This document shows, piece after piece, positions 5,929-60,348 of a stretch of DNA of 64,000 bases. Origin of the DNA: Chloroflexota bacterium (GTDB taxonomy: Bacteria > Chloroflexota > Anaerolineae > Anaerolineales > VGOW01); contig JACPWC010000126.1 of the NCBI GenBank assembly GCA_016197225.1, positions 1 through 64,000 of the forward strand. Reading direction: 5' to 3'. A model generated the notes under the pieces. That model was given only the letters and a program-made list of their open reading frames with translations. It searched no databases and was not told the origin of the DNA. How positions within the stretch are numbered: position 1 is the first letter of the stretch; each line of letters begins with the position of its first letter. Made by a program: the position numbers and the translations under genes.

Positions 5929-5941
5929 CAATATCCAATAC

Positions 5942-6940: not shown

Positions 6941-6985
6941 GGCAAGAGGGTAGACGAATTTTGCCCAACCCGCAAATCTGGTTAA

Positions 6986-7053
6986 CCACAGAGACACAGA
7001 AAGCACAGAGAGAAAAAAGCAATGTTATCTCTGTGAACTCTGTGTCTCTGTGG
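6986..7053. repeat. Palindromic element with CCACAGAGACACAG arms
   Basis: The 14-base arms at 6986-6999 and 7040-7053 are exact complements, and inner ACAGAGAG-type segments extend the pairing. It fills the spacer between rplI and the rodZ-like gene. Beside it, 7058-7078 holds a second hairpin (GGGCAATTT pairing with AAATTGCCC). Confidence 0.7.
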
Positions 7054-7085
7054 CGCAGGGCAATTTGGTAAATTGCCCAACGGGC

Positions 7086-7637: not shown

Positions 7638-7743
7638 GGAGTCAAGCCCTTTCATTGCTTGGAGAGAATTTTCGGGCGAAGGGTACAACGCCCTGATTGG
7701 CAGGCCGGAATTCTACCACATTTTTGATTCGGTCGGCTAATTA

Positions 7744-10700
7744 TTAATTATTAGGCGGCAATTCAAAGATGGCGGTGAAGTGGAAAGCGCTGCCCAGCCC
7801 TGGCTCGCTTTCCACCCACAAGTGACCGCCAAACTTTTTCACCAGTTTCTCCGAGATGGCCAATCCCAGCCCGGTGCCGCCGTACTTGCGGGTGGTGTGG
7901 CCATCGGCCTGAACGAATGGCGCAAAGATGAGGGCCTGCTTGTCTTTAGGGACGCCAATGCCGGTGTCTTTCACCACAAAATGGAGAACGATCTTGGCGG
8001 CAGATTCCCGTTCTACTTGAGCCTGCAGAGTCACTTCGCCCCGTTCGGTGAACTTGATGGCGTTATCCAGCAGGTTGAGCAGAACCTGCCGCAGGCGCGT
8101 CGGGTCGCCTACGAGGATCGGAGGCGTGTTGGCGTTTAGCGAATGTGAGAAGCGCAGGTTCCTGGCCGCGGCCCGCGAGGCCAGGGTGCTCATCACCTGC
8201 TCAAGCAGGGCGGGCAATTCAAATTTTGTATGCGCCAGCGTCAGCCGGTCGGCCTCGATACTGGACAGATCGAGAATGTTGTTGAGAAGCTCGAGGAGGG
8301 TTTCGCCGGAGGCATGAACTTGTTGCAGGCTCTCGCGCTGTTCAGGGTTCAGGTCGGTGTCGAGGATCAGTTCGGTGAGGCCAAGCACAGCCGTGAGCGG
8401 GGTGCGAATTTCGTGGCTGGTGTTGGCCAGAAATTCGCTCTTGGCGCGGTTGGCGGCCTGGGCGGCCACGGCCAGTTCGTTGGCGTTGAGCAGAGCACGC
8501 TCGAGGTCGGCGTTGGCGATGGCCAGCGCGGCCTCAGTTTGTTTGCGTTCGGTGATGTCCTCTTGCACCGCCAGAAAGTGAGTGATCGCGCCAGAAGCGT
8601 CCAGGATGGAGGAAATGGAGGCCAGTTCCCAATACAGTTCGCCGTTCTTCTTCTTGTTGTGAATCTCCCCCCGCCACTCGCCCCCGGCGGCGATCGTGTC
8701 CCATAGCTGTTTGTAAACTTCTGGCGGGGTCCGGCCCGACTTCAGAATGCGTGGATTCAAGCCCTGAACCTCCTCGAAGGTGTAGCCCGTCACGTGGGCG
8801 AATCGGGGGTTGACGTACTCAATGTTCCCAGCCGTGTCGGTGATTATCACCGAGGCCGGGCTTTGTTCGACGGCCCTGGATAATTTGCGAAGCTGTTCCT
8901 CGGCCTGCTTGCGCTCGGTGACGTCGCGATAGTTAAGGACGACACCGGCCACGCGCGGGTTGTCGGCAAGGTTGTGGCCGATCACTTCAAGATTTCGCCA
9001 TTGCCCATTCTTGTGCTGAATGCGAATTTCCACCGTTTCAATTACGCCTGAAACCTGAAGGTTTTGGGCAAAGACAAGGGCAACCGGAAGGTCGTCGGGA
9101 TGGATGAGGCTGGGCGCAAGCACATGTTGGCCCACATAGTCGGCAGGTGAGTATCCAAGTATCCGCTCAAAAGACGGACTCTGGTAGCGGATAACGCCTT
9201 CCTTGTCCACAATGGTGATGCCCTCGGCCGCATTTTCAATAAGCGCCCGGAAGTATTCCTCGCGGTGTTCCAGAGATTCAAACAGCCGGGCATTGACAAT
9301 GGCGACTGCCGCCTGATCAGCAAACAAACTCACTAATTCCAGATCGGCCAGGCCGAATCGATTTGGGCGATTGTCATTGGTGGTGATCACCCCCAACACT
9401 TTCCCCTGCCACTTGATCGGCAGGGCCAGCACGGCCCGGAAAGGCGCTTGCTCATAAACGGCGGCCCGGCCTTCCCACTCATGATAGTCGCCGATGATCA
9501 TCGGCTCGCCGGTTTGGGCCACCTTGCCGGAGAGTCCTTCGCCCAGACGCAGGCGATAGCCGGTGTAGTCACGATCGTTGTTATAGCTCACCACCAGTTC
9601 CAGGGTTTGCTCGTCGGGTAAAAGGAGATAGAAGCCGCCCATGGGCGCTTCCAACAGCCGCGCGGCGCGTTCGGTAATCGTCCGTAGCAAGGCCGGCAGG
9701 TCAAGTTGCGCGCTCAGGGCCAGACTGGTTTCGTGCAGGGCCGTAAGCGCCGCGACGCGCTGGCGGTTGGCCTCGAACAGCCGGACGTTCTCAATAGCCA
9801 CTGCCGCTTGATCGGCAAACAGGCTGACCAGTTCCACATCCGCCGGGCTGAAACGATCCGGGCGATGATCCATGATGTTGATCACGCCCAACACCTTCCC
9901 CTGCCACTTGATGGGCACGCCGACCGCCGCCCGAATTGGCCCCGCCGCATAAGCGCCTACCCGGCCGGGCCACATCTGATAATCGCCCACTACCAGCGGG
10001 TTGCCGCTCTGAGCCACCTGGCCCGAAAGCCCCTCGCCCAGCCGCAGGGGGGTTGGCGCAATGTCAGGCTGAGGGTTATAACCGACGATTGGCGCCAATG
10101 TCTGCCCGTCGGGCTGAAGCATTTTTAGCTCTCCCATCGGCGCTTCCAACATCATCGCGGCGCGCTCGATAATCGTCCGCAATAAAGCCGGCAAGTCGAG
10201 TTGCGCGCTCAGGGCCAGGCTGGTTTCGTGCAGGGCTGTAAGCGCCGCGACGCGCTGGCGGTTGGCCTCGAACAAGCGCGCATTCTGAATCGCCACGCCC
10301 GCCTGCCGCCCGACCAGCTGGGCCATGGCCAGATCGCGCCGAATGAAACGCCGGTCCGGGTTCAGGTAAAACAGCCCCAACACGCCCAGGCAGGCCTCGC
10401 CGACGACGACGGGAACGCCGATGAAGGCGCGTATCCCGGCTGTCACCCAGTCTGGCAAGGCTTGCGGGTGCGCTCTGTAGTCGTCGAGCAACACCGGCTC
10501 ACCGCTCAGGACAATTTGCCAGGCGATGCCTTTGCCCCTGGCCAGCGGTTGCAGGGTAAGCGATTCACGGAGGTTGAAGATAAAAGGAAAGGTGATCGTT
10601 TGGCCGTCGCCTGTGACCAGGGCCATCGCCCCGGCCTCGGCCCCAATCAGTTCGGCGGCCAGGCGCACGACGGTTGAAAGGACGGTCGAAAGCTCCAGCG

Positions 10701-29305: not shown

Positions 29306-30352
29306 TCAGTTGATCAACCCATCCACTCGATACATCTCCATCTCGCCTTTGCCCTTCACCTGCACCCGGCCAATGCCCTGGGTGTGGCAAAGGTGAGCGA
29401 TGCGCTCCCAGGCCGCCTGGCTGACGTTGACGGCGTTGGGCAGGCCCAGGGCTTCCACGCGGGCGGCGGTGTTCACCGTGTCGCCCCAAACGTCAAATAG
29501 ATATTGCCGCTTGCCCACCACGCCGGCGATCACCGGGCCAATGTTCACGCCCACCCGCAGTTGCCACCTCGGCGGCACGGTGGGGGTGATGGCTACCATC
29601 TCCAGGCCGCACTTCACACAGTTGAGCACCGGGTTTTCCACCGGCTCCAGCAATCCGGCGGTAGCCATAAAGGCGTCGCCGAGAGTTTTGATCTTTTCCA
29701 GTTGATAGCGTTCGGCGATTTCCTCGAAGATGCCGACCAGGTTTTGCAGGTAGTCCAGCACTTCTTCCGGCTCGCGGCGGTCACAATAGTTGGTGAACTC
29801 GACGATGTCGCAGAACATGACGGCCACGTTTTCGTAGCGGCGCGGCCTGACGGCGTTGGTGGCCTTTAGCTCTTCGACAATCGTGTCGGGCAGGATCACT
29901 CGCAGAAGGTCGTCGGCCCGCTTTTTCTCGGCGGCGATGGCCTGCATGTGGGCCTGCTCCTGATCGCGCAGGCGCTTCTTTTCCAGGCAGGCGCTGACTC
30001 TGGCCTTGAGAAGAACAGGATTGAACGGTTTGGGCAAGTAGTCGTCTGCGCCCAGCTCGATGCACCGCACCACGCTGTCCACTTCGTCCACCGCCGAGAC
30101 CATGATCACCGGAATGTGGCGCAGGTCGCCGTCGGCCTTCATGTGCTCCAGCACCTCGTAGCCGTTCATTTCCGGCATCATGATGTCGAGCAGAACCAGG
30201 TCGAACGATTCGGCCTTGAGTTTGTCCAGCGCCTCACGCCCATTCTCGGCCAGGGCAAAGTTATGCCCCAACTGTTTGAGTCGGCGCGAAAGCATGTCGC
30301 GGTTCATTTGGTTGTCGTCAACTACCAGCATGTAGCCGGGCGTCGAATTCAT
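29306..30352 (-). CDS. Response regulator with class III adenylate cyclase output
   Basis: A 348-residue protein. The receiver (about 6-122) has MLVVDDNQMN, VLLDIMMPEMNG and DDYLPKPF. After a helical linker a CYCc cyclase domain begins near 165. FCDIVEFT and GDAFMATAG supply the metal aspartates, KIKTLG the substrate lysine, and FDVWGDTVNTAARVE the specificity Asp plus catalytic Asn and Arg. The Lys/Asp pair indicates ATP rather than GTP. It should make cAMP when phosphorylated (inference). A -10 (TAAAAT, 30360-30365) sits 7 bases before the ATG. It is followed immediately by eutQ. Confidence 0.93.
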   Translation of the reverse strand: MNSTPGYMLVVDDNQMNRDMLSRRLKQLGHNFALAENGREALDKLKAESFDLVLLDIMMPEMNGYEVLEHMKADGDLRHIPVIMVSAVDEVDSVVRCIELGADDYLPKPFNPVLLKARVSACLEKKRLRDQEQAHMQAIAAEKKRADDLLRVILPDTIVEELKATNAVRPRRYENVAVMFCDIVEFTNYCDRREPEEVLDYLQNLVGIFEEIAERYQLEKIKTLGDAFMATAGLLEPVENPVLNCVKCGLEMVAITPTVPPRWQLRVGVNIGPVIAGVVGKRQYLFDVWGDTVNTAARVEALGLPNAVNVSQAAWERIAHLCHTQGIGRVQVKGKGEMEMYRVDGLIN

Positions 30353-30439: not shown

Positions 30440-30808
30440 TCAAGCTGGCAACATCCCCGTCACCCGCGCCCAAAGCTCGCGCAGGTTGATCGGCTTGGGC
30501 AGGTAAATGTCACAACCGGCGGCCAGGGCTTTGTCGGCGTCGCCCTTGAGGGCGTTGGCAGTGAGGGCGATGATGGGAACGTAACGAAGCGTCTCGTCCG
30601 ACCGTAATCGGCGCGCCACTTCGTAGCCGTCAATGTCGGGCAGGTTGATGTCCAGCAGAATCAGGTCGGGCTTCTGGCTTCGCGCCATTTCAACGCCGGT
30701 CAACCCGTTCGCCGCCCAGACGATCTTGTAGCCACGCGCCTCCAGCGCCCGTTGAACCAACAGCAAATTATCAGCGTTGTCTTCAATGTAAAGAACGGTG
30801 CCGCTCAT
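30440..30808 (-). CDS. Stand-alone receiver (CheY/DivK-like)
   Basis: A 122-residue single receiver domain: VLYIEDNADN, LILLDINLPDIDG, IIALTANALKGD and CDIYLPKPIN carry all conserved positions. The TANALKGD segment resembles DivK and phosphorelay receivers. There is no output domain, so it acts by protein contact. Its ATG overlaps the stop of the threonine synthase-receiver gene (ATGA), so the two are translated together. Confidence 0.92.
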   Translation of the reverse strand: MSGTVLYIEDNADNLLLVQRALEARGYKIVWAANGLTGVEMARSQKPDLILLDINLPDIDGYEVARRLRSDETLRYVPIIALTANALKGDADKALAAGCDIYLPKPINLRELWARVTGMLPA

Positions 30809-32484
30809 CCTGGCCTCCCTTCGCGAGGCGGCTTCTCACCCAGAACCTGCACCACCTGCTCCACAAAAGCTCGCGGCGAGAGCGAGCCTTTCTGATAAAG
30901 CGCCTCAATATGTCCCCGCAACCGGCGGCGCTCCTCGTTTGTAATATCTTTGGCGCTGACGACGACAACCGGAATGTGCGACGTGCGTTTGTCCTGGCGT
31001 AATTCCTGCAGAAGCGAGAATCCATCCAGGCCCGGCATCATCAAGTCGGTGATGATCAGGTCTGGCCGACTCTGCCGGGCCAGCGCCAGCCCGTCAACCC
31101 CGTCGGCGGCCCGGAATACCCGGTACGACTTTTTGGCTTCCAGCAAACGTTGAATGAGCAGAGCATCGTCGGGGTTGTCGTCCACGATCAACACCGTCGT
31201 CGCCCGCTCGTCCAAATTATCCAGCGCGGCCAGCAGGCCCTCGCGCGGCGCGGGCGTTTGATCGTTGCTGAGATGAACGTCCACACCCCACTGATCGCCC
31301 AGCACGTGCTTCTCTACCGGAAAAGTATGGCCGGTGCAATTGACGACTACTAACGCCTCGCCGCCGATCTGCCCCTGCCGGATCAATTTTTCCAGCCCGG
31401 CAAAGGCCACCGCCGTCGCCGGCTCCACCGCCAGGCCTTCGGCTTTGGCCAGCGCCCGCATCGAAGCAAACGCGTCAGCATCCGACACGCTTTCCATCGC
31501 CCCGCCATATTTTTGTAATACGCGCCAGAGATAAGTGTAGGTCTGGCCCGGGTCGCCGGTGGACAGGATCGCAATCCGGGTTTCGGGGACGACGGGCGTA
31601 GCCGTCTCGCGCCCGGCCTTGAAGGCTTGCGCCATCGGCGAACAACCTGCGGCCTGGATCACGGCGATCTTCGGAATGCGATCAATCAGGCCCATGTCCA
31701 GCATTTCCCGGAAGCCCTGATAAACGCCCAGCGGCCCGAGGCCGCCGCTCACGGCTTGAATATACCAATCGGGCGCGCGCCAGCCGAGTTGCTCCACAAT
31801 CTCGTAAGCAATCGTCTTCATAGACTCTCGCGCAGCCAGACTCTTCGCCCCGCGATCCAACAGCAGGCCGCGTCGTTTGGCGAAGTCGGCGGCGATCTGC
31901 TTGGTCTGATCGTAATTGCCGCTCACCTTCACCACTTCCGCGCCGAATAGGGCCGCCTCACGCAGTTTCTCCTGCGGCACCAGGCTGGTCATAAACACCC
32001 ACAGTTTGATTCCGGCGCGGGCGCAGGCGGCGGCGTAAGCCACCGCCGCGTTGCCGGTCGAGGCAATCACGCACTCGCGGATCCCGGCTTCCAGCATCGC
32101 CGCCACCGACACGGCGGCCTGGCGATCTTTGAAAGAGCGGGTCGGCCCATAACGCTCATCTTTGATATACAACTGGTTGTGTTCCACCGACTCGGCGTAG
32201 CGCCGCGAGAGTTGCAGGGGCGTGCCGCCGGCGCTAATGACATTGCGGCTGTCCGGCTCGTCCACTGGCAGAACATCGCGATAGCGCCACAGGTTGAGAG
32301 GGCGTTCCGACAGGCCGCCCAAAATTTCGCGCTTGAACGAGGCGTAATCGTAATGCGCCTGCATCCAGTCCGAGCCGCAAACGTCGCACGTCGGCCCAAA
32401 CAGCGTCCGGCAGGGTTGCTGATGGCCGCACTCCATGCATGACAGGAAAAGTGGTTTGGTCATTGTTGGAATTTGCTCAGACAC
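30805..32484 (-). CDS. Threonine synthase-family PLP enzyme fused to a receiver domain
   Basis: A 559-residue fusion. The N-terminus has a zinc-ribbon (CMECGHQQPC and CDVCG, residues 16-40), as in archaeal-type threonine synthases. The fold-type II PLP domain (about 60-420) has SAGGTPLQLSRRYA, the PLP lysine in RSFKDRQAAVS near 119, and ASTGNAAVAYAAACARAGI. After a short linker a complete receiver (about 430-545) has TVLIVDDNPDD, LIITDLMMPGLDG and VVVSAKD. Threonine synthase makes threonine from O-phosphohomoserine; here the activity is unproven. The start is either GTG at 32484 or ATG at 32463. It sits between a kinase and a receiver gene, with ATGA overlap to the latter. Confidence 0.88.
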   Translation of the reverse strand: MSEQIPTMTKPLFLSCMECGHQQPCRTLFGPTCDVCGSDWMQAHYDYASFKREILGGLSERPLNLWRYRDVLPVDEPDSRNVISAGGTPLQLSRRYAESVEHNQLYIKDERYGPTRSFKDRQAAVSVAAMLEAGIRECVIASTGNAAVAYAAACARAGIKLWVFMTSLVPQEKLREAALFGAEVVKVSGNYDQTKQIAADFAKRRGLLLDRGAKSLAARESMKTIAYEIVEQLGWRAPDWYIQAVSGGLGPLGVYQGFREMLDMGLIDRIPKIAVIQAAGCSPMAQAFKAGRETATPVVPETRIAILSTGDPGQTYTYLWRVLQKYGGAMESVSDADAFASMRALAKAEGLAVEPATAVAFAGLEKLIRQGQIGGEALVVVNCTGHTFPVEKHVLGDQWGVDVHLSNDQTPAPREGLLAALDNLDERATTVLIVDDNPDDALLIQRLLEAKKSYRVFRAADGVDGLALARQSRPDLIITDLMMPGLDGFSLLQELRQDKRTSHIPVVVVSAKDITNEERRRLRGHIEALYQKGSLSPRAFVEQVVQVLGEKPPREGRPG

Positions 32485-32508: not shown

Positions 32509-35500
32509 CTACTTCCGCTTTGCGCTCTTTGCATCCGGGTGATATTCCGAACGGATCGGCAGTTCGACGTAGAAGATTGAGCCGCCGTCCGGGCCGGAGA
32601 GGCCGCCGCTCTCGGCCCACAACCGGCCATTGTGCAGTTCGATCAGGTGGCGGCTGATGGGCAAGCCCAGGCCGGTTCCGCTCGCCTTGCGCGTGGTGGA
32701 ACTATCCACCTGGTGGAACTCCTGGAAGATCGACTCCAAGTGGTTGACAGGGATGCCGACGCCCGTGTCGCGGATCGCCACCAGAATGCGCGACTTCGAT
32801 TTGACGGCGTTGATAGACACCGACCCGGCCTCGGTGAACTTGATGCCGTTGTTCACCAGGTTGATCATCACCTGGCGCACACGGATGCGGTCGGCTTCCA
32901 GATCAAATTGATCAGTTGCCTGGGTCTCCAAACGAATCTCAAGCGACTTGTTCTGGGCTAGCGGGCGGGCGAGTTCGACGACCTCTTCCAGCACTTCCTG
33001 AAGGTTGAACGGCTCAATCGTCAACGCCATCTTCCCGGCCTCGATCTTGGCCATGTCGAGAACGTCATTGATCAGGCTCAACAGGTGCTGGCCGTTCTTG
33101 TGGATCACCCGCAAATCGTTGTCCATGCGGTCGGTCAGGTCGCCGTCAATGCCTTCGAGCAGAACTTCGGCGAAGCCCAGGATGGAATTGAGGGGCGTGC
33201 GAAGCTCATGGCTCATGTTGGCCAGGAACGACGACTTGAGCTGGTCGAGTTCGCGCAGGCGGGCCACCGTCGCCGACTGTTCGGCATAGAGCCGGGCATT
33301 TTGCAGGGCCACGGCCACCTGCCCGGCCAGCGTCAGTTGAATACGGAGGTCGTCGTCGGTGAAGCGGTTGAGGGCATCGGACTGCACGTCGAACACGCCC
33401 AACAGTTTGTCGCCGACCACCATCGGGATCGCCATTTCCGAGCGCGTGTTGAGCAGAAGGGGGTTGGGCAGAAAGTCCGGGGCCAGAGTCACATCGTTGA
33501 CGACCACACCTTGCCGGGTGCGGGCGGCGCGGGCCACCAGCGAGCCTTCATGGCCGAGCAAGATGCGCCGCCCGCCGGCGGTCATCTTCCGGCCCGCATC
33601 ACCTGCGCCCGCCGCCAACACCAACGTGTCGCCGGTTTCGTTGAGCAGGTAAATGTGGGCGTGATACAAATTGAAGCTGGACTTGGTGAGATCCACCACT
33701 TCCTGCAGCAGAGCTTCCGCCTGCAACACCGACGAGGCCGCCGTGCTCACCCGGGCCACTGTCTCCAGTTCAACCGCGCGTTTGGCCAATATATTTTCGG
33801 CGCGCTTGCGCTCGGTAATATCGCGGGCGATCCAGAAGACCTTGTCCTCGCCCAGCGGCGACACAGTGGCAAAGAACCACAAATCGTTTCCGTCAATTTG
33901 GAGTTGATATTCGGCGTTGACCGGTTGATGAGTCTCCAGCGCCTCGCGAATCAGGGCATGCAACTCGTCTGCCTTTGGTTTTGGCATCACTTCGTAAAGA
34001 GTCTTGCCAAGCATGTCTTCCGGCAATTTGTACAGAAGCGACGGGTTGGTCGGCGCGATCTTCACGTAACGGCCATCTTTGTCGTAGACCAGCACCACGT
34101 CGGTCATGGCGGCGAACAGCGCGCTCAACTCAGTCGCGTTGTGCTCAACCTCCTCAAACAAGTGGACGTTCTCAATCACCCCGGCCAACTGACCGGCAAT
34201 CGTTTCGACCAGCGCCGTCTCATCGGGCCTGAAGGCGCGGGCCGGGTCGGTGGTGTCAACGCCAATGGTGCCGATCACTTCGCCGCGCGCCAGCAAAGGC
34301 ACAATCATCAAACATTCTGTCTGGCGCTGGCGCAGAAGATCATGGATGGGTTCGGTGAGCGGGTCGGTTTGGGCGTGGGCAATGACGAGTGAGCGCCGGG
34401 TTTCGATCACATGGACTGAAGACGGGTTGTTGTCAAGCGGAATAGATACGCCGACCGAACTTGGCTCGTCGGGCGAAGTGTTATGATCGGCGACGACGTT
34501 GAGGTATCTTCGTGTCTCGTCCAGCAGGGCAATGCCGCTGTTGCGGGCTTTGAGCACCTCGACAATTTCCTTCGCCGTGGCCTGCAAAATGGATGGCAGG
34601 TTAAATGACGAGGCCGCCACTTCAACCACGCGGTTGAGGGTCGCCAGCTCTTCGTTGCGGCGGCTGGTTTCGGCCAGCGCCTTCTGGGTCTGGTTGAACA
34701 GGCGGGCGCTGACGATGGCGTTCATGATCGAGATGCTGATCGTTTGCAGGAGATTGACTTCGTAAGCGCCCCAGGCCCGTTCGCGGGCGCAGTCGTCGAA
34801 GCCGATGAAGCCGTAAAACTCCTTCCCGGCAAACATGGGAATGACCAGGATGGCGCGAGCGCCTTGCGGTTCCAAAACCCTGCGCTCGGTGGCCGGGAAG
34901 TCGTGCACCAGGCCGTGAATGATCTCGCCCCGGCCCAGCGCGGTTTGCCAGCGCGGCAAGGTGGTGGCGTAAGGCAGGTGTTGCAACTCAGGGTTATTAA
35001 TCTGCGGGGCAATTCCTTCGGCGGCCCATTCGTGAGTCTGGCGAATGCAGAACAGGCCATCAGCGTCAATAAAGTTTTCAAAGATGTAGGCGCGGCTCAC
35101 ATCGCTAATGTTACCCACGCGAGCCAGAACTTCCGGGATGGCGGCGGGGCCGTGCTGGAGCAATTCAACTGCGGTGTCGGCCACCGCCGACACGGCGCGC
35201 TCGCGCCGGGTGAGGTCGGCCAGGGCCTGGCGGGTCTGGTCGGCGAGCCGCAGGTTTTCAATGTGGGCGCTCAACTGCTCGGCCACGGCGGTCACCAGGT
35301 CAGCCGTTTCAACATCTTTCTCGCACAGGCCGGCAATGGCCAGCTCGCCGATCGTCTCCCCGCGCACCGACAGGGCCTGGGTGAAAACCAGTTCATCAAC
35401 AGAGGCGGCATCCACTTTGTTCAACGGCCTGACTTTGTCGTGATCGTAAGTGTAGCCATCGTCGGCATCTTCGATCTTCTCCAAATAGTCCTGCCAGCCC

Positions 35501-37014
35501 TCGCGAGTGAGCTGGCGCGCCGCCTTCTCGGCTTCGAGGCGATAGTTTTCAGCCTGAGCCAGCAGGCGCAGATTCTCAACTTGCAGGGCCACGCGGCGGG
35601 CAATGGCATTGACCACTTCGATTTCATCATCCGTCCAGGATTGATCGCGGCTACCTTCGAGTCGAATGGCGCCGATCGGTTCGCCAGAGATAGTAATGGG
35701 AATGGCCAACGAGGGCTGATCGGGTGACGGGACGCCCGCCTCTTGAATGGGCAACAGGCCGCCCGCGTCAAAGGTGTAACCGATTCGTTCACTACGCTCG
35801 ACGGCATTGAGGAAATCGGCCCAGCCGGCCTGGCTGAGGCGGCGAGCCTGAGCTTCAACCTCGGCGCGGGCTTGTTCGGCCTGGGTGAAGAGAGCGGCGT
35901 TGCGAATGGCAATAGCCAACTGCCCGGCCACTGCTTCAAAGGCCGGCAGGGTTTCGGCGGTGAACGCGTCGGGCTGGCTGTGCTGTAAGTCCAGCACGCC
36001 CACCACCCGGTCGCCCACCACCAGCGGCATCGCCATTTCGGAGCGGGTGAGAGGCAAAAGAGAATTGGGGCGGAAAGAAACGCTTGTGGCAGTATCAGAC
36101 ACAATGACGGCCTGTTTTTCGGCGGCGGCCCGGCCATTCAGAGAACCAGGGCCAACCGGCAGGCGGTGGCTGCGCCGGAACAGTTCGGCGCCGGTAGAGC
36201 CAGTGCCAGCCCGCAAGGCCAAAATGCGGCCGGTAGAGTCGGTCAAATACACCTGAGCGTAGTACAAATCAAAACGCGAGCGGATCATCTCGACGGCTTC
36301 AGACAGCAGGCCGTCCAGGTCGCGCACTTGCGAAATGCTATGGCTGATTTCGGCGGCCAGGGCCAGGCCGTGCGCGCGGGCGGCGACGTTTTCTTCCAGC
36401 GAAAGGCGGACCGCCTGCAATTCCTGATTACTTTCGCGAAGGCGCTTGACCATTTCATTGAGGTTGCGGACAAACAGGCGCAGGAGCACCGCCGTGATCA
36501 GAAAACCAACGGAGAGTCCAACCAGATAACTCGCCGGATCAGAAGTTGCCGGCGGCGGCAAATACCCTTGCCGTTCCAGGTAAAAAGCGGCACTGCCGGC
36601 GACAAGGCTCAACCCGGCGATGCCCAGCGCCGGGCGGCTTCCGAGCAACAAGCCGGCGGCGACGACGACAACGGTGTAATTGGCAAACGCAGGAGCCTGA
36701 ACGCCGCCAGAGGCAAAGACGATCAGAGTCAGGCTGGCCCAGGCGGCTAGAAGATAGAAGATGCTGGCCAGGCGGACTCGCTTCAGGCGCAGAAGAATTT
36801 GAGCCAGTACCGGCACTGCCATCGGCAGCATAAATCTCAGGATGGCGGTTCGGGCATCAATGGCTTGCCTTGCCAGCGCAAGCCCGACGGGCACGGCTAA
36901 AGCAATAATGCCCAACGAGGCCAGGGTAATGATGTTGAGCAGGCGAGCGGTTCGTGTTTCATCTTCGTTTTTGAAAACCGGCGGCGCGAGAAATTGGTGG
37001 AGTGATTGAAACAT
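32509..37014 (-). CDS. Large membrane histidine kinase with multiple GAF domains
   Basis: A 1501-residue kinase. Six hydrophobic helices (about 25-185) form an unnamed membrane sensor. A coiled coil and about five GAF or GAF-like domains follow (about 235-960), then a PAS (about 965-1085) ending ITERKRAE and one more GAF (1095-1260). HisKA MSHELRTPLNSILGF is near 1268 and HATPase_c has SGTGLGLPISRHL near 1455. No receiver is attached. The threonine synthase-receiver gene follows 25 bases later, which makes that fusion a likely phosphoryl target (inference). Confidence 0.9.
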   Translation of the reverse strand: MFQSLHQFLAPPVFKNEDETRTARLLNIITLASLGIIALAVPVGLALARQAIDARTAILRFMLPMAVPVLAQILLRLKRVRLASIFYLLAAWASLTLIVFASGGVQAPAFANYTVVVVAAGLLLGSRPALGIAGLSLVAGSAAFYLERQGYLPPPATSDPASYLVGLSVGFLITAVLLRLFVRNLNEMVKRLRESNQELQAVRLSLEENVAARAHGLALAAEISHSISQVRDLDGLLSEAVEMIRSRFDLYYAQVYLTDSTGRILALRAGTGSTGAELFRRSHRLPVGPGSLNGRAAAEKQAVIVSDTATSVSFRPNSLLPLTRSEMAMPLVVGDRVVGVLDLQHSQPDAFTAETLPAFEAVAGQLAIAIRNAALFTQAEQARAEVEAQARRLSQAGWADFLNAVERSERIGYTFDAGGLLPIQEAGVPSPDQPSLAIPITISGEPIGAIRLEGSRDQSWTDDEIEVVNAIARRVALQVENLRLLAQAENYRLEAEKAARQLTREGWQDYLEKIEDADDGYTYDHDKVRPLNKVDAASVDELVFTQALSVRGETIGELAIAGLCEKDVETADLVTAVAEQLSAHIENLRLADQTRQALADLTRRERAVSAVADTAVELLQHGPAAIPEVLARVGNISDVSRAYIFENFIDADGLFCIRQTHEWAAEGIAPQINNPELQHLPYATTLPRWQTALGRGEIIHGLVHDFPATERRVLEPQGARAILVIPMFAGKEFYGFIGFDDCARERAWGAYEVNLLQTISISIMNAIVSARLFNQTQKALAETSRRNEELATLNRVVEVAASSFNLPSILQATAKEIVEVLKARNSGIALLDETRRYLNVVADHNTSPDEPSSVGVSIPLDNNPSSVHVIETRRSLVIAHAQTDPLTEPIHDLLRQRQTECLMIVPLLARGEVIGTIGVDTTDPARAFRPDETALVETIAGQLAGVIENVHLFEEVEHNATELSALFAAMTDVVLVYDKDGRYVKIAPTNPSLLYKLPEDMLGKTLYEVMPKPKADELHALIREALETHQPVNAEYQLQIDGNDLWFFATVSPLGEDKVFWIARDITERKRAENILAKRAVELETVARVSTAASSVLQAEALLQEVVDLTKSSFNLYHAHIYLLNETGDTLVLAAGAGDAGRKMTAGGRRILLGHEGSLVARAARTRQGVVVNDVTLAPDFLPNPLLLNTRSEMAIPMVVGDKLLGVFDVQSDALNRFTDDDLRIQLTLAGQVAVALQNARLYAEQSATVARLRELDQLKSSFLANMSHELRTPLNSILGFAEVLLEGIDGDLTDRMDNDLRVIHKNGQHLLSLINDVLDMAKIEAGKMALTIEPFNLQEVLEEVVELARPLAQNKSLEIRLETQATDQFDLEADRIRVRQVMINLVNNGIKFTEAGSVSINAVKSKSRILVAIRDTGVGIPVNHLESIFQEFHQVDSSTTRKASGTGLGLPISRHLIELHNGRLWAESGGLSGPDGGSIFYVELPIRSEYHPDAKSAKRK

Positions 37015-37031: not shown

Positions 37032-38972
37032 CTACTTGGTTTTGAGCGCGGGCTTCTCTGCCCGGCTCAACAGGACGCTGGCGCGTTGCGCGCCCAACAC
37101 CTGCCCCAGTTCGCGGGCGGCAATTTGCAGAACGCTTTCAACGCTGGTCGCGCTTTGAATCTTCTGGCCGATGAGGTTGATGAGCGTTTCGCGATCGGCC
37201 TGGCTTTGCAGAGCGCGATACAAACGCGCGTTTTGCAGGGCCACCGCCACCTGGCGGGCAATGGATTGCAACAACTCAACGTCATCCTGCTTAAGGCCGC
37301 CGACGTGGTTGTGTTGAACGTCCAGCACGCCCAGCACCCGGTCGGCCAGGGCAATCGGCGCCGCAATTTCAGATTTCGTGTCGGGCAGGAGCGGGTTGGG
37401 CAACCAGGCCGGGTTCTGGGATACGTCCGGCGCCAGAACGGCGGCGTTGGTCGCGGCGGCGCGCCCCACCAAACCATGCCCTTTTGGAATGTGATGGCCG
37501 CGAGCCAGCATGGCCGCGCCGGCTTCACCTGTGCCGCCCACCATCAGCAAATTTTCGCGCTTCTCGTCGAACAGATAAATCTGGACGTGATAGTAGTCAA
37601 AAACAGAACGCACTTGCTCCACCACTTCCGACACCAGTTCCTTTTGATTGACGATGGTGGACAACTGGCGGCTGACTTCGGCGCTGGCGGTCAGGGCTTT
37701 GGTGCGCTCGGCCACGCGCTCTTCCAGCCCGCCCACCAATTGCCGCAGTTGGGCCGTCATACTGTTGAACGTCGTCGCCAGGATGCCAATCTCGTCGGCG
37801 ACCACGGCTGGGGCCTGGGCGGTCAAGTCGCCGGCGGCCACCCGCTCGGCGGCGGCGGTAAGGCGAGTGATGGGGCCGGTGAGCAGACGGGCCACGATCA
37901 GAGACACGGTGGCCGCCAGCGAAGCAATCGCCAGCGTCACCAGCAACGTGGTTCGCGTCTGTTGCTCAACGGGCGCAAGGCTTTCCTGCCGGTCTTGATG
38001 CACAATCAGAGTCCAGCCTAGATCAACATCACTGCCCGGGCTTTCCGTTTGGCTCACGCCGTGCACCTCAATCTGCGCCGAGGTGATCAGGCTGGGCCTG
38101 CCTTCGTAGATGAAATCGCCAAAAGATTCGCCTTTCAGGCTGCGCGCACTGGTCAGGGTTTCAGCGTCGAGGGAGGTCAGGCCTTCGCTAAATTCCGGGG
38201 CCAGCAACTGGCCGTCGGGCAACAACACTTCGCTGTCGCCGGTCTTGCCCAGCGTGGCCGAGGCCAGAATATGGGTGATGGCAGCCAGCCGGAATGTGGT
38301 GCGAAGCACGCCGACCACTTCGCGAGTGCCGTGCGCGAAGAGCGGCACGGCGATGTTGCTGGCAAAGGTGTCGCTACTTTCGTCGAACTCCGGCTGGCCG
38401 ATGAAGATTGCGCCCTGGCCGCCGTTGTAAGCCGTTTGCCACCATGTTTCATCGGCCTGGAAATAGTCTGAGGTGCGGTTGGTGGCGGCGATGTTGGCCC
38501 CGTAACGATCGGTGACGAACACTTCGACGTTGTCGGGGAAGGTGTCTTTGTACTCGCGCAACTCGCTCGCCACTTCATTGTCCAGCCGCGATTGAACGAG
38601 CGGGTCGTCGTTATTGTCCGCCGCGTCGGCGGCCCGCCATTGTTGATCCAGTTTATCAATCTCGATCTGGATGGAGGCCGGGTCGCCGGTGTAGCCGCCG
38701 TTGGCGGCTTCCACCGTGTCTTGAACTATCTTGCTTAAGCCGAACGCCTGAAGCGAGTTCACTTGATTATCGAGCAAACTGCCAATGGCCAGCGCCTGTG
38801 ACCGGGCGATGCTGTTCAGGCTTGCGCCTGCGTTGGCTGTCAAAATCGAGCGATTGGCGCGGTCGTTGAGGTAAGCGACGGCGCCCACCGAAAGCACTGT
38901 CAGGCTCACGAACGTTACAATCATCTTGGTCTGCAGAGAGAAAAAAGGAAACCGACGAACTTTAACAGTCAT
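37032..38972 (-). CDS. Membrane sensor with Cache-like, HAMP and GAF domains, no output
   Basis: A 646-residue protein. The first membrane helix is at about 15-37 ([19 protein letters not shown]). A large extracellular region to about 325 resembles dCache ([31 protein letters not shown]). The second helix is at about 335-357, then HAMP ([20 protein letters not shown]), a coiled coil and a GAF (about 440-590). It has no kinase, cyclase, GGDEF or MCP signalling domain, so it must act on a partner. The GAF is a close paralogue of that in the next upstream gene. The ATG at 38972 is preferred over an in-frame TTG at 38981. Confidence 0.85.
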
Positions 38973-38992
38973 GAGTCGCAACCTCTCCTCGA

Positions 38993-40417
38993 TCAGGCTT
39001 TATGGCCGTTCAAGTCGTGGCCGTTTGCAGGCGCAACCGCCTTTAGTTTCACTCGCGTTTGTTTTGCGCCGAGCGCCCGCCCCAGTTCGCGCACTGCCAC
39101 TTGCATGGCGGCTTCCACCGTGTCTGAATTCTGAATGCGCTGGTTGATGGCGATCATCAAAGCTTCGCGAGCCACCTGCTGTTGCGTTTGGGCGAAGGAG
39201 CGGGCGTTGCGTAAGGCCACCGCAACCTGGTTGGCAATGGCTTGCAGGAGTTCGGCGTCTTCCGGGGTGAGGCCGCCAACGGTGTTTTGTTGAACATCCA
39301 ACACCCCCAGCACCTGCTCGCCGAGGGCAATCGGCACGGCCACTTCCGATTTGGTGTCGGGCAGGAGCGGGTTGGGCAACCAGCCGGGGTCGCTGGCAGT
39401 GTCGGCGGCCAGCACGGCGGTGTTCGAGTCGGCGGCGCGCCCCACCAGCCCGCGCCCCCTGGGAATTTTGTGCCCGCGCGCCAGCAAAGCCTTTCCGGCT
39501 TCTCCGGTTCCGCTGGTCATGACCAGCTTCTCGTGTTGCGCGTCGAACAGATAAATATGGGCGTGGTAGTAGTTGAAGGCCAACTGCACCTGCTCTACCA
39601 CTTCGGCCACGAGTTGCCCTTCGTTGAGGATGGTGGACAGGCGGCGGCTGACTTCGGCGCTGGCGGCCAGGGCTTTGGTGCGGTCGGCCACGCGTTGCTC
39701 CGCTTCCTCATTCGCATTATGCAGAGCCGCTTGCATCTTAACGGCGACCTGGATGGAATTGCGGTGATTCTCGCAAAGCGCAGTGGTGAAGATAGCCGTC
39801 CCCAAGACCGGGAGGGCATGGGCGAGCACGGAAACAGCGTTTTCGCCGTAGAAGTATACCCACTGAGGTTCAACATAATTCAGGACGCCATGATGGAGCG
39901 CCGTTAAGACGAGCACGATCCAATTCAGTCGCCAATCGGCGTAGACCACTAACAGGGCCATGAGCATGAAAAAGTGAAAGTGCATCTCAATGGAGCCGCC
40001 GCTAATAAACACAAACAGGTAAGAAAACATCGTCAGATTGAGGGTGACGAAGATGCGCCAAACGTAGTGGCGGTTGTCCACTTTGCCTCGCAGGAAAGTG
40101 GGGCCTAAAGTGATAACCAGGGCAACGAGCATGGCCCCCAGCGCCTCCGGCCCGCTGATCACCCGGTAGGAAAACGGGGAAGAAAAATAGCGCGCCGGTT
40201 GAAAGATGAAGATGATAATCGTCAAGAGGGCGAATGCCGCAAAATTTCCCCATAGCGCCCAAACGATAAGCCGGTCTATACGCGGGTAGTTCATCGCGGC
40301 CAGGTAGGCCTTATTGATGTCGGAAGTGAAATCTATCTTCCTCAGCAGTTCGTGGAAGGTTTGCCGCCGCGCCTGAGGCGCCTGTCTGGCGAGTGAAGGA
40401 TTGGTTAACGTCGTCAT
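38993..40417 (-). CDS. Multi-helix membrane sensor with GAF, no output
   Basis: A 474-residue protein with about six membrane helices (50-225) and a C-terminal GAF (about 255-420). The membrane part has [39 protein letters not shown] and a Pro nearby, a His-rich pattern seen at the N-terminus of some chemoreceptors and kinases. The histidines could bind a ligand or metal (inference). Like its downstream neighbour it lacks any output domain, and the GAF is a near copy. The stop lies 20 bases before the neighbour's start, so the pair is co-transcribed. Confidence 0.85.
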
Positions 40418-40435: not shown

Positions 40436-43273
40436 TTATCGCTTTATAGCTTCGGCGGAAACGAGCGGCAAGCTGAAGCTGAAGCAACTGCCCTGCCTCT
40501 CTTCGCTCTTGACACTAATCGCGCCGCCATGCTGTTCGACGATGGACTTGACAATGGCCAGGCCCAGGCCGTTGCCCTCGATCTCTTTTAAATCGCCGTG
40601 TTGCGCCCGGTAGAATTTCTCGAAGATGTAAGGCAGGTCGTGTTCGGAGATGCCGGGGCCGGAATCTTGAATCTTGATTTGCACTGCGCCCTCGCCAATT
40701 TCCGCGCTGATGGTGATCTGGCCGCCGTCGGGCGTGTATTTGAGGGCATTGCCCACGAGGTTGCGCGCAACCTGCCGCAAGCGTGGGGCGTCGCCCAGCA
40801 CTTGCGCCTGGCTCGCAAATGGCATGAGGGTGAGCGTTTGCTGTTTGTTGGCGGCCTGTGTTGTAAATTCGTCGGCTACGCCCGTAAACAAGTCGAGCAC
40901 GTTGCAGGGTTCCAGCTTGAGGCCTACGCCCATGTCAATGCGAGCCATCTCCAGCAGGTTCTGCACCAGTTCGTTCATTTGCTTGGTGGCCTTGTCAATG
41001 CGGTCCAGGTATTCGTGTTGTTGCAATGTGAGCGGCCCAAGCTTGGTGACCAGATAGCTGTAGCCCATGACGGCGGTGATGGGGTTTTTGAGGTCGTGAG
41101 AGGCGGTGGCAATAAACTCGTTCTTCACCCGATCCAGGTCTTTGAAATGGCTCACGTCGTGCAAAACTGCCACCTGCCCGCCTTCCTCGATGGGCGTGAT
41201 GACGGTGGCAAAGGTTCGTTTGTCGGGCCAGACGATCTCGCCCTGCTCCGGCTGGCCGGAGAGGCGGGCGCGCTCAAGCATGTTGACCAGCGCATCGTAG
41301 CCTTTGCCGAGCGGGAGCGAAGCGCCGAGCCGGGTTTCAACATCGGCGAACAGTTTTTCGCCCGCCGGATTCATTAACTGCAAACAGCCTTCGGCGTCAA
41401 TCACCAGAATAGCGTCGGCGGCGCTGCGCAAAATTGCCGAGAGCCGCCGCTCTTCCTGTTCCACCGATTCAAACAACCGGATGCGGTCGAAGGCGGTGGC
41501 AATTTGCGAGGCCAGGTTTTCCAACACTACCCGGTCGCTTTCCTGAAAGGCGTGCGGCCTCATGCTGTGAATGGCTAGCACGCCGCTCACTTTAGAGTCC
41601 CAGATCAAAGGCACGGCAACCGCCGACAGGGTGGGCGGTGCGCCGGGTCTTTCACGCGGCCTGGCGCGTTCTTCCACCGCGCCGGAGAAGTGGGCGGGTT
41701 GGCCGGTGGCGGCAACCTGTTGTGGGGCCAGGGCTAGTAGTGAAGGGCGCAGGCCGGTTTCAGCGCCGGCGACATTGCACAATTGAGGCGATTCGCCGTC
41801 GGTGAGCCAGAGCGACACGACAGGGTAGTCGAGTGTCTGGTGAATTAAGTCGGCGGTTCGCTCAAAGAGTTCCGTCGAGCGGGTGAAGAGGCTGATCTCG
41901 CGAGTCAAGCGGTTGAGGGCCACCAGTTCGGTGACGCGCTTGCGCTCAATGGCGTAGAACTGGGCGTTCTCGATGGCAATGGCGGCCTGACCGGCAATGG
42001 CTTGCAGGAGGGTAAGATGATCCTGCGTGAAGTAAGCCCGCTGGGAGTGATGCAGAGTCAGCACGCCGATGACGCCGCGCCGGCTGAGAAGCGGCACGGC
42101 GATGGCCGAGCGCGTGGGATCGTTAGTCAGTTTGAGCCAGCGAGGATCGGTGAGGGTGTTTTCGATGATCATGCCTTTGCGGGCCGAGACCACGTATGGC
42201 GCTACGCCTTCGCTGACCAGTTTCTCTTTGGCAACCTGCCAGCTCCAGGGCGAGAAGTCGGCAGTGGTGTGTATTTGGTGAAGCACACTGCCGTCGGGCT
42301 GGAAGATGACGATATAACCGTTGATGGCTTCCAGGGCCGGCACGCTCCGGCGCAGGGTGACAGTCGCCAGTTCTTCAATGTCCATTCGAGCGCTAAGGTC
42401 CTGGCCGATCTCAGGCAGGAGGCCAAGCTCGCGGTTGCGGCGGCGCAGGGCGTCTTCGGCAAGCTTGACGCGCAGTTTGGAGCGGACGCGGGCGGTCAGT
42501 TCACGCCAGTCGAAAGGTTTGGTGACGTAGTCGTCAGCGCCCAGGCTGAGGCCCTGGCGCACGTCGCGCGGCTCGATGCGGGCGGCGGTGATGATGATGA
42601 CGGGGATGTGGGCGATGCGCGGGTCGGCCCGCATCTCGGCCAACACCTCAAACCCGTCCTTCTTGGGCATATTGATGTCCAACAGCACCAGGTCGGGCAG
42701 TTCGGCGTAGATCTGAGCCAGGGTTTCTTCGCCGTCGGCGGCGGTGATGAAGTTGTAGCCTTCACTGCTCAGGCGGGTGGAAAGAAGCTGGACGTTATCC
42801 GAGCGGTCGTCGGCGATGAGGATTTTGAACTGGGTGCGGTTGAATGTCTGGGCCGCCGCCGCCACCTGGGCCGGGTGGAGTCCTTCCAAAGCCTGGCTGA
42901 CGATGGTTTGAATTTTTTCCGGTTGGACAGGTTTGACCAGGTAGTCCTTGATCCTCAGCCGACGGGCAGTGGCGGCTAAACCGGGGGTGTCGTAGGCAGT
43001 GATGAGAATGGTGTGGGCCGGTTCGTGTCCGCCCTGAAGTTTTTCGATCAGTTCCAGCCCGTTCATGCCGGGCATCATAAAATCGGTGATGAGCACGTCA
43101 ATGGCGTTGTTGCCAATCGTGTCGAGCGCCTCCTGCCCGCTACGGGCGGTGAGGACTTCGACGGGTGTTTTAAATTGACCGAGGGCCCGGGCCAGCATGG
43201 AAGCTGTGTTGGGGTGGTCGTCAACGATGAGGATGCGTGCTTGATGGGAAGTGGAAGCAATCGAATCGGCCAT
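40436..43273 (-). CDS. Double-receiver GAF/PAS histidine kinase
   Basis: A 945-residue soluble kinase. Receiver 1 (about 13-130) has ILIVDDHPN, ITDFMMPGMNG and DYLVKPVQ. Receiver 2 (about 148-270) has ILIADDRSD, VLLDINMPKKDG and DDYVTKPFD. Two GAF domains (about 300-460, 465-610) and a PAS (about 615-715) follow. HisKA ATASHDLKNPITAVMGY is near 724 and HATPase_c GNGLGLAIVKSI near 925. Two front receivers suggest it takes phosphoryl groups from other kinases. GATAAT lies 6 bases before the ATG at 43273, so the mRNA may be leaderless. Confidence 0.92.
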   Translation of the reverse strand: MADSIASTSHQARILIVDDHPNTASMLARALGQFKTPVEVLTARSGQEALDTIGNNAIDVLITDFMMPGMNGLELIEKLQGGHEPAHTILITAYDTPGLAATARRLRIKDYLVKPVQPEKIQTIVSQALEGLHPAQVAAAAQTFNRTQFKILIADDRSDNVQLLSTRLSSEGYNFITAADGEETLAQIYAELPDLVLLDINMPKKDGFEVLAEMRADPRIAHIPVIIITAARIEPRDVRQGLSLGADDYVTKPFDWRELTARVRSKLRVKLAEDALRRRNRELGLLPEIGQDLSARMDIEELATVTLRRSVPALEAINGYIVIFQPDGSVLHQIHTTADFSPWSWQVAKEKLVSEGVAPYVVSARKGMIIENTLTDPRWLKLTNDPTRSAIAVPLLSRRGVIGVLTLHHSQRAYFTQDHLTLLQAIAGQAAIAIENAQFYAIERKRVTELVALNRLTREISLFTRSTELFERTADLIHQTLDYPVVSLWLTDGESPQLCNVAGAETGLRPSLLALAPQQVAATGQPAHFSGAVEERARPRERPGAPPTLSAVAVPLIWDSKVSGVLAIHSMRPHAFQESDRVVLENLASQIATAFDRIRLFESVEQEERRLSAILRSAADAILVIDAEGCLQLMNPAGEKLFADVETRLGASLPLGKGYDALVNMLERARLSGQPEQGEIVWPDKRTFATVITPIEEGGQVAVLHDVSHFKDLDRVKNEFIATASHDLKNPITAVMGYSYLVTKLGPLTLQQHEYLDRIDKATKQMNELVQNLLEMARIDMGVGLKLEPCNVLDLFTGVADEFTTQAANKQQTLTLMPFASQAQVLGDAPRLRQVARNLVGNALKYTPDGGQITISAEIGEGAVQIKIQDSGPGISEHDLPYIFEKFYRAQHGDLKEIEGNGLGLAIVKSIVEQHGGAISVKSEERQGSCFSFSLPLVSAEAIKR

Positions 43274-50734: not shown

Positions 50735-51391
50735 CTAATACTTGATCGGGTCTCTCGCCACTTCCAGCACCGTTTCGCGGAAGGCGACGGTGGCGGCTTT
50801 GCAGGCCGGTTGATCGCCGGTGAGCATGACGCCCATGTAGTTCGTCTCGGAGGGCGGCATGGTAAGGGCGACGATGCGCACGGCGGCGGCCTTGAGGGCG
50901 GCGTCGAGGGCGTACACACCCTCGAGCGGCGGCGCGATGAGGTAAGCGATCGGGTCGCCGAGCGGGATGTTGCACACTTTAGAAAGATAAGTGCCGGTGC
51001 GCGAGATGAGATGCGGGAAGAAGGCAATTGAAGCATCTTCGTTGGCCGAATACCAGATGGCCTCATTCTTCATGTAGCTCAGGGCGGCGCTCAGTCCGGC
51101 GCGGACTTCGGCGGGGTTGGGGCCGGCAATGACGGCCAGAATCTCGCCCGACAGCAAACCCGACGCATGTTTGGCTCCGGCGTAGAACGAGCGGGCGTAC
51201 ACCACTTCCACATCGGCCATTTTGGTAGCTTCGTCAACCGAGACGTAAGTGGCGTCGTCGTTGTCGGCCGTGATCAAGCCGATGGATTTTTGCTCCGGCC
51301 TGAGCTTCAACTGCTCGGCGAAGTTCGGGTCAACGTTCGGGATCATGCGAACGGCGAGAGGGGTGGCGTAGATGGGATCGAGAACGGCCAT
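50735..51391 (-). CDS. eutL: Microcompartment shell protein EutL (tandem BMC)
   Basis: A 218-residue trimer-forming shell protein. Its start (AVLDPIYATPLAVRMIPNVD), KSIGLITADNDDATYVSVDE, VEVVYARSFYAGAKHASGLLS and YLIAPPLEGVYALDAALKAA match EutL, whose circularly permuted BMC repeats form a gated pore. The TAG stop is created by sequence of the adjoining palindromic element. The next upstream gene is eutC, 268 bases away with a gene remnant between. Confidence 0.95.
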   Translation of the reverse strand: MAVLDPIYATPLAVRMIPNVDPNFAEQLKLRPEQKSIGLITADNDDATYVSVDEATKMADVEVVYARSFYAGAKHASGLLSGEILAVIAGPNPAEVRAGLSAALSYMKNEAIWYSANEDASIAFFPHLISRTGTYLSKVCNIPLGDPIAYLIAPPLEGVYALDAALKAAAVRIVALTMPPSETNYMGVMLTGDQPACKAATVAFRETVLEVARDPIKY

Positions 51392-51453
51392 AGAATCTCC
51401 AGAGAATAGAAGTCAGAGGTCAGATTGTTGGATGGTTTGGCTGGAATAGTCCG

Positions 51454-51627
51454 CCAGTTTTCAATGAGACGATAGAGCATTTTGCAAATGACAACGTAGT
51501 CTTCAGTTAGAATGTTGCAGGTCTCTACTTTGGCATATTCGAGTTCACAAGCAATTTCAATATGCACAACCATTTCGTTCGCTGAACCAAGCGCCACGGA
51601 GAGGAAATGCTTGAAATCTTTAGCCGA
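51454..51627 (-). pseudogene. Remnant of a four-helix bundle (S23/IVP-like) protein
   Basis: The minus frame reads SAKDFKHFLSVALGSANEMV, then HIEIACELEYAKVE and YVVICKMLYRLIENWR. This is the C-terminal half of the four-helix bundle family first known from 23S rRNA intervening sequences. The N-terminal half (about 60 residues) and a start codon are missing. Eleven-base inverted repeats (51409-51419 and 51636-51646, GAAGTCAGAGG) flank it. Confidence 0.65.
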
Positions 51628-51659
51628 TTTACGCCCCTCTGACTTCCGGCCTCCAACCT

Positions 51660-52583
51660 CTATTTCGCCGCCAGCTTCAACTTCACCCCGCTGGCCTGAT
51701 GCTTGATCATCTTTTGCGCGATCTGGATGGTGAAGGCCGCGCCTTCGAGCGGATTGGTGCCGCCGTTGTTGAAGATGTTGCACACCACGTCGCGGTCGGC
51801 GTCGGTGTCGCCGCCTTTTGGACGATAAGCCATGTAGGCGCTCAACGACTCGGCCCGGCCCAGGCCGGGGCGCTCGCCGATGAGCAGAATGACCACATCC
51901 GGCTTGAGCAGGTCGCCGATGTCGTTCAGCACGCCCACCCGGCAATATTTGATGAAGAACGGCGTGCCGACCGTCAGCCCGGCAGACTTCGCGCCCTGCA
52001 TGATGACCGGGAACATTTCACGGGCGTTGGCTTCCACCGCCGCCGCGCTCAACCCGTCGCCGACGACGAGTTGAATGTTGGGCGACTTGGCGCACTTTTC
52101 ACTGATTGCTTTTTTCGCCTCATCACTCAACTGTCGCCCTAAGTCTGGTCTCAGCAAATACTCCTGCTTGCCGCCCGTGATGTTGGTTTGCACGGTGAAC
52201 AGGCCCAGGTCGTCGAGCAGTTTCTGATCGACGTCGCGCATTAGGGCATCCTGGGTGATGGCATGGTCGCCCTGAAAGAGCAGGAGCGAGAAGGTGTTGT
52301 AGTGCGGTCCGGCGCGGCCCACGCCAATTCGAGACGTCGTCGAAGCGATGAGAGCCTTGACAGCGTCGGCGTCTTTTGGATTCTTGACTCGCGGCTTGTA
52401 GCGATGTTCGGGCAGGGTGGGATCGGGAAGATCGATGTTGAGACTTGCCGCCGAGGGCTGTCGAGAAGGGGACGCCGCCACTGGAGGGGCGGTTTCCGCT
52501 GAGGCGGGCGGCGTTGCAACTTTGGCCGCCGCCAGTTCTTTGACAACGGCTTCGATGATGGCGTTCAGTTGGGCTTCATCCAT
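51660..52583 (-). CDS. eutC: Ethanolamine ammonia-lyase small subunit
   Basis: The light chain of the B12-dependent lyase that splits ethanolamine into acetaldehyde and ammonia. It has 307 residues. The first 20 (MDEAQLNAIIEAVVKELAAA) form an amphipathic helix followed by an Ala/Pro linker, which fits a microcompartment encapsulation peptide (inference). The catalytic part has RIGVGRAGPHYNT, LVVGDGLSAAAVEANA, VILLIGERPGLGRAESLSAY and NIFNNGGTNPLEGA. The ATG at 52583 overlaps the end of the coiled-coil gene by 8 bases. Confidence 0.96.
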   Translation of the reverse strand: MDEAQLNAIIEAVVKELAAAKVATPPASAETAPPVAASPSRQPSAASLNIDLPDPTLPEHRYKPRVKNPKDADAVKALIASTTSRIGVGRAGPHYNTFSLLLFQGDHAITQDALMRDVDQKLLDDLGLFTVQTNITGGKQEYLLRPDLGRQLSDEAKKAISEKCAKSPNIQLVVGDGLSAAAVEANAREMFPVIMQGAKSAGLTVGTPFFIKYCRVGVLNDIGDLLKPDVVILLIGERPGLGRAESLSAYMAYRPKGGDTDADRDVVCNIFNNGGTNPLEGAAFTIQIAQKMIKHQASGVKLKLAAK

Positions 52584-52971
52584 GGCGGGCGGCCTCCAGT
52601 TGCGCAACGCGGGCTTCAAGTTCTTCTATTCGTTCTTGCAGAGTTATTTGATCGACACGATGTCTTTTGGTGGTAACGGTCAGTTCGGCAATGTTATCGC
52701 TAGTCTTTTCCAGGCGGCTAAAAGCGTTTCCCACATCGTTTTTCAGAAGTCTCGTCGCTTCTTCCAGTTTGGCGACACGGGCTTCCAAAGCAGTGATGCG
52801 TTGGTTGATCTGGCGGAATTCTTGTTGAATGAGCGCGGCCTGATGGTCGAAAGCGGCATCAAGCTTTTCGTCAGTAACAGTCTTTGCCAGACGGGCCTCA
52901 ACAGGCGCGAGCGCTTCCTGAATTACTTCGCGCACAACCTTTCTAATTTCATTCTGGTTTTGTGTTTCCAT
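52576..52971 (-). CDS. Coiled-coil protein encoded between eutB and eutC
   Basis: A 131-residue, wholly helical protein. The first helix (NEIRKVVREVIQEALAPVEA) is amphipathic and resembles microcompartment-targeting helices. Heptad-rich segments follow: QQEFRQINQRITALEARVAK near 50-70 and LQERIEELEARVAQLEAA near the end, with a middle part (SRLEKTSDNIAEL). I do not recognise a family. It starts in the eutB stop (TGATG) and overlaps eutC by 8 bases, so all three are translationally coupled. eutB and eutC are normally adjacent. A lumen scaffold or lyase-clustering role is possible but unproven. Confidence 0.8.
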   Translation of the reverse strand: METQNQNEIRKVVREVIQEALAPVEARLAKTVTDEKLDAAFDHQAALIQQEFRQINQRITALEARVAKLEEATRLLKNDVGNAFSRLEKTSDNIAELTVTTKRHRVDQITLQERIEELEARVAQLEAARHG

Positions 52972-54341: not shown

Positions 54342-54481
54342 GAGACCTCAATTCAATAAAGGACTACTCTTCACAGTCGGCACAGTTGGGTATGCTTGCT
54401 CAAGCCGGTGGCCGGTTGGGAGGCACAAAGTATAGCCGAGAGATTGATCTCCCTCAAGCACAAATTTTGAACCATTTGCAT

Positions 54482-58606: not shown

Positions 58607-58615
58607 GGAATAAAA

Positions 58616-58672: not shown

Positions 58673-58707
58673 AATTGCTCACAAAGCGCGCGACAGACGG
58701 AGGGCAA

Positions 58708-60282: not shown

Positions 60283-60348
60283 GTAACAATTCTCCTCTCA
60301 AGATTAGTAATTTGGTTTACACGCAATCGCGTGAGCTACCCAGCCCCC

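Follow-up and report, generated by a model that had tools for sequence, protein, structure and literature searches.

What does a receiver domain do when it is joined to a PLP enzyme, and which enzyme is it? For most response regulators the target is DNA or a second messenger. The 64,000-nucleotide stretch of Chloroflexota DNA analysed here (the window) contains a gene, denoted PALP-REC, through which an outside signal may switch a metabolic reaction directly. The gene is a single uninterrupted open reading frame at 30805-32484 on the minus strand, which, counted from a GTG codon, encodes 559 amino acids in which a zinc ribbon and a fold-type-II PLP domain precede a complete receiver. The N-terminal zinc ribbon (Cys16/19/33/36; 32377-32439, minus strand) is conserved in the family. 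It is followed by the PLP domain (PF00291, residues 86-385; 31330-32229, minus strand), which is detected by Pfam and supported by alignment of a structural model (Z 35-42 with threonine synthases and CapA2), and by an interdomain linker (residues 386-428, HTFPVEKHVLGDQW...APREGLLAALDNLDE; 31201-31329, minus strand) that is conserved in clade A of the family and partly in clade B, and has low pLDDT in the model. The receiver domain (residues 429-551; 30832-31200, minus strand) completes the protein and is recognized both by Pfam and in a residue census. In one frame, Pfam finds PALP (residues 86-385, E 2.7e-70) and Response_reg (residues 431-517, E 3.6e-20), and the motifs SFKDRQA (K119), VDDNPDD (D435/D436), TDLMMPG (D480) and VSAKD (S510) are all present, as is the receiver lysine, K532. 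The codons for PLP Lys119 and for the phospho-acceptor Asp480 are located at 32128-32130 and 31045-31047, respectively. Membership of fold type II is indicated by K119, N145, an SGGLG loop and T384 (threonine or serine across the family), and that of the receiver superfamily by D435/D436, D480, S510 and K532, which are present in all 65 family members. A preliminary description of this DNA had claimed an intact PLP domain and a complete receiver in one frame, and both are confirmed. The frame that it placed at 30805-32484 is indeed open, but its GTG start is probably too early because most clade-A relatives begin at an ATG equivalent to residue 8. The true start is probably this ATG at 32463, seven codons after the GTG, which would give a protein of 552 amino acids.

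The PALP-REC fusion is seen in about 70 distinct Chloroflexota loci, those of cultured Herpetosiphon among them, and it is kept together with its sensor kinase across dozens of species. A GTDB-wide pattern scan, which reaches close relatives only, returned full-length fusions solely from Chloroflexota; these single-ORF proteins, at 45-74% identity, come from Anaerolineae as well as other Chloroflexota, and the cultured species represented are Herpetosiphon giganteus, H. geysericola and H. llansteffanensis. Further fusions came to light when 61 related genomes and 350 Chloroflexota genomes were scanned. In the 350-genome scan, all matches at E<1e-75 either span both domains or correspond to the second half of the clade-B copy in the host genome, and no unfused homologue was found at this threshold. 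Samples covering 146-299 genomes were drawn from the phyla to which the Chlorogloeopsis, Brevundimonas, Myxococcus and Puteibacter loci belong, and at E<1e-68 they gave no fusion, their only matches being unfused cyanobacterial relatives. The fusions form two groups, clade A being 63-75% identical to the window protein (Herpetosiphon lowest) and clade B about 45-54% identical, and the host genome carries one copy of each, the clade-B copy being G000:C24 (L119:9812-11662).

For the residue census we aligned 65 members, of which 40 belong to clade A (the window protein included) and 25 to clade B, with one sequence being truncated. PLP Lys119 and Asn145, together with the receiver acid pair, Asp480, Ser/Thr510 and Lys532, are kept in 64 of the 64 complete members, as are the zinc-ribbon cysteines except for a gap at the first cysteine in one clade-B row. 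The possibility raised in the preliminary description that homologues never keep both the PLP lysine and the receiver aspartate is therefore defeated. In close pairs, moreover, dN is zero or dN/dS is low, at approximately 0.02-0.04 in the PLP domain and 0.04-0.07 in the receiver, and both domains alike are under strong purifying selection.

In the window, PALP-REC is surrounded by signalling genes that are all on the minus strand and whose domains were assigned by Pfam. As the preliminary description had stated, the fusion stop overlaps a stand-alone receiver of 122 amino acids (30440-30808) by the four bases ATGA, and a histidine kinase of 1501 amino acids with GAF, PAS, HisKA and HATPase domains (32509-37014), which is the presumed partner of the fusion, lies close upstream. 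Directly after the single receiver is a gene for a receiver with an adenylate/guanylate cyclase domain (29306-30352), which occupies the same place in the same-genus locus L090/L187. Upstream of the kinase are a dCache-HAMP-GAF sensor (37032-38981), with similar Cache/HAMP/GAF genes being located upstream in other clade-A loci, a GAF-domain protein (38993-40417), and a REC-REC-GAF-GAF-PAS-HisKA-HATPase kinase (40436-43273) for which similar kinases are found in L014, L038 and L043. Spacing and strand suggest that these genes form an operon; a promoter and terminator scan gave a site count no higher than in shuffles. Upstream of the kinase run, and on the same strand, is an ethanolamine-utilisation cluster (50735-61994, minus strand) that contains genes for a BMC shell protein, EutC, EutB, oxidoreductases, an FGGY kinase, an amino-acid permease and EutA. 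In the same-genus locus L188/L092 an EutQ cupin gene is present just after PALP-REC and the single receiver, and no association with ethanolamine utilisation was seen in the other loci scanned.

Two operon types are conserved. Type A, to which the window belongs, has the order sensors, histidine kinase, PLP-REC and single receiver; type B has the order sensors, hybrid kinase, PLP-REC and EamA-family transporter. Fusion genes were called with home-made domain profiles, and the locus counts carry that limit: in clade A, each of the 43 distinct loci has a histidine kinase immediately upstream, a single receiver is next downstream in 40 of these, and an unfused PLP enzyme is present at most 2.5 kb downstream in 19. 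In clade B, a kinase, mostly hybrid with one or two receivers, is upstream in 26 of 28 distinct loci, and an EamA-family transporter (Pfam-confirmed in three cases) is downstream in 23. Other EamA proteins, such as RhtA and YdeD, export amino acids; a homology search of the EamA transporter against solved structures for its substrate gave no match. Variations on these arrangements are also present. Locus L157 (G183) encodes PALP-REC-REC in one ORF (5672-8110, minus strand), after which come a single receiver and a stand-alone PLP enzyme, and in several clade-B loci the hybrid kinase gene shares about 35 bases with an overlapping gene for a ParA/MinD-like ATPase (L165:1913-2701, with equivalents in L160, L169 and L174). 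Genes for Methyltransf_19 S-adenosyl methyltransferases adjoin clade-B systems in L171 (G144), which has three consecutively, and at L036:3059-3874.

On balance, we lean towards the reading that PALP-REC is a response regulator having a PLP enzyme as its output and controlled by the adjacent kinase, and we infer both that the enzyme is active and that its activity is under phosphorylation control. The adjacent kinase would phosphorylate Asp480 in the fusion receiver, and a conformational shift of the phosphorylated receiver would then raise or lower the activity of the PLP domain. Signals perceived by the Cache/GAF/PAS sensors might in this way determine how much of a small amino-acid-like metabolite is present, without transcription. 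In clade B, the adjacent EamA-family transporter probably carries the substrate or the product across the membrane, and in clade A the fusion enzyme and the stand-alone PLP enzyme next to it may belong to one pathway. More tentatively, the whole might constitute a dedicated two-component pathway acting on a PLP enzyme of new specificity that makes an amino-acid-like compound, which in type B would be moved across the membrane by the EamA-family protein; the output would require no transcription and the chemistry would be of an undescribed kind.

Receivers joined to metabolic enzymes are a recognized class of response regulator (PMC5847659), and so the preliminary assessment of PALP-REC as a rare output is fair yet needs this qualification. 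Like the enzymatic-output response regulators in that class, PALP-REC has a receiver that is covalently linked to an enzyme and is encoded beside a histidine kinase, but its output is a fold-type-II PLP enzyme and its receiver is C-terminal and lacks the aromatic residue at K-3. No description of a PALP-receiver fusion was found in the open literature, and no biochemistry was found there for any PALP-REC member; the architecture itself may already be present in domain databases. With a clade-wide, vertically kept fusion of receiver and PLP enzyme that has its own kinase and, in one branch, an EamA-family transporter, direct phospho-control of small-molecule metabolism would become open to testing in a genus that is in culture. 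PALP-REC would also bring to light a separate family of enzymes that is easily labelled as threonine synthase.

The strongest rival to the response-regulator reading, although we regard it as unlikely, assigns different roles to the two domains. The PLP domain would be a sensor or scaffold whose binding of an amino acid adjusts the receiver or the kinase, or the receiver would be a phosphate sink or a localisation tag. A sensor-rich operon with additional receivers is consistent with this idea, as is the placement of the fused receivers, which cluster with hybrid-kinase receivers, including the second C-terminal receiver of type-B kinases (98% SH-aLRT). Receivers of the hybrid-kinase type often relay instead of driving output. 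Moreover, the aromatic residue at K-3 is absent in 65 of 65 members, which have leucine or valine at this position apart from one isoleucine and one histidine, and glycine follows the receiver lysine (KG in place of KP) in 64 of 65, so that canonical coupling of the receiver to an output is not assured. The K-3 aromatic belongs to the Y-T coupling pair kept by 86% of receivers, and it is on this rationale that its absence favours a sensing or phosphate-sink role (PMC12632262). Because the coupling aromatic is missing, the receiver probably signals via another surface or via the conserved linker; most of receiver residues 511-538 have pLDDT <50 in the model. Nevertheless, every catalytic PLP residue tested is conserved, unfused relatives exist that have no receiver, and linkage to the EamA transporter in clade B fits metabolite turnover, all of which argue for an enzyme as the output and against a sensor or scaffold.

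If PALP-REC is a response regulator with an enzyme as its output, the preliminary description would have that enzyme be threonine synthase-like. Membership of the superfamily is upheld, and the closest solved relatives of the PLP domain are threonine synthases. An AlphaFold model built from 36 sequences has a mean pLDDT of 76.5 and a pTM of 0.66 and is weak in the linker and in a portion of the receiver. Its best structural matches are threonine synthase 2c2b of A. thaliana (Z 42.1, 2.3 A, 379 residues) and CapA2 9k3c, which is listed as a cysteate synthase and for which the alignment takes in the N-terminal part (Z 41.2, 2.8 A, 385 residues). The common fold does not reveal the substrate. A true threonine synthase, converting O-phosphohomoserine to threonine under two-component control, is the next rival and an improbable one, even though its best solved relatives and matching fold speak for it, because the window protein falls under all of the curated cut-offs. 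It scores 160 bits against 167.1 for TIGR00260 (thrC), 239 bits against 303 for PRK08197, which is still the best NCBIfam match, and 120 bits against 324.9 for cysteate synthase (TIGR03844); on this last score cysteate synthase is rejected despite the good fold alignment.

Comparison with threonine synthases (TIGR00260; T. thermophilus 1uim and A. thaliana 2c2b) shows that PALP-REC shares their fold and the positions of the PLP lysine, asparagine and threonine but has SFKDRQ instead of SFKDRG and a GGLG rather than a GNAGN loop. Residues T88, N154, S155, R160 and N188 of the T. thermophilus enzyme are, we presume, those that contact the substrate phosphate, although a literature search turned up no paper assigning them this role. 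These positions are occupied by A, R, G, A and G in the window protein and by A/V, R/Q, G, A/S and G in the aligned representatives, whereas the canonical ThrC of the host genome (L003) retains all five residues. A canonical thrC is also present elsewhere in the genome in 23 of 26 fusion-bearing genomes, and a housekeeping threonine synthase role is rejected for this reason. In favour of threonine synthase, the two clade-A downstream stand-alone PLP enzymes that were scanned are PRK08197 members (577 bits), for which the NCBIfam label is threonine synthase. These proteins resemble PALP-REC in having a zinc ribbon and a PALP domain, but the identity is only about 28%, the motifs are SFKARG and GGGTG, and there is no receiver. 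In addition, in vitro conversion of O-phosphohomoserine has been reported for a divergent ThrC of cyanobacterial origin (PMC12172450), so that the argument from pocket residues lowers the likelihood of threonine synthase activity but does not exclude it; L212, a possible relative, likewise has an altered pocket. Taken together, the sequence comparisons do not support the label "threonine synthase" for PALP-REC, and its substrate is probably a compound other than O-phosphohomoserine. The weakest rival, an assembly chimera, a frameshift or a chance joining of two genes, has a negligible probability despite the 126-contig draft assembly from which the window is taken, and is rejected because many independent genomes, some of them single-contig assemblies and some from cultured Herpetosiphon, carry the same single-frame fusion, with strong purifying selection on both domains.

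The PLP-domain tree also sets PALP-REC apart from threonine synthase. A single clade (95/91) holds all 27 fused sequences. Its sisters are four unfused cyanobacterial proteins, and the joint clade is fully supported (100/100), has a long stem, and is separate from canonical ThrC, PRK08197 and the further ThrC-like genes that the host genome carries. With the fused PLP domains forming a single clade that is sister to unfused proteins, the fusion probably arose a single time; in this tree clade A is nested inside clade B. The unfused cyanobacterial KDRQ-type PALP proteins (L204-L211) are 44-50% identical to the fusion across the PLP region and have the motifs KDERQ/FKDRQ, MKT and VSGG(L/M)GP in common with it but, unlike the fusion, they have neither a receiver nor signalling genes nearby. 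Their PRK08197 scores of 260-283 bits are just under the cut-off of 303, some pass TIGR00260, and they are probably a distinct enzyme. Genes neighbouring the unfused cyanobacterial homologues encode cellulase, MFS, GH3, Mg-chelatase-like and citrate transporter proteins, and gave no consistent functional hint. Since these cyanobacterial members have no receiver or nearby kinase, the enzyme module can stand alone, which suggests that a self-sufficient enzyme module gained its receiver in Chloroflexota. In one cyanobacterial homologue, L208, which is at a contig end, the ORF continues into an upstream cellulase domain.
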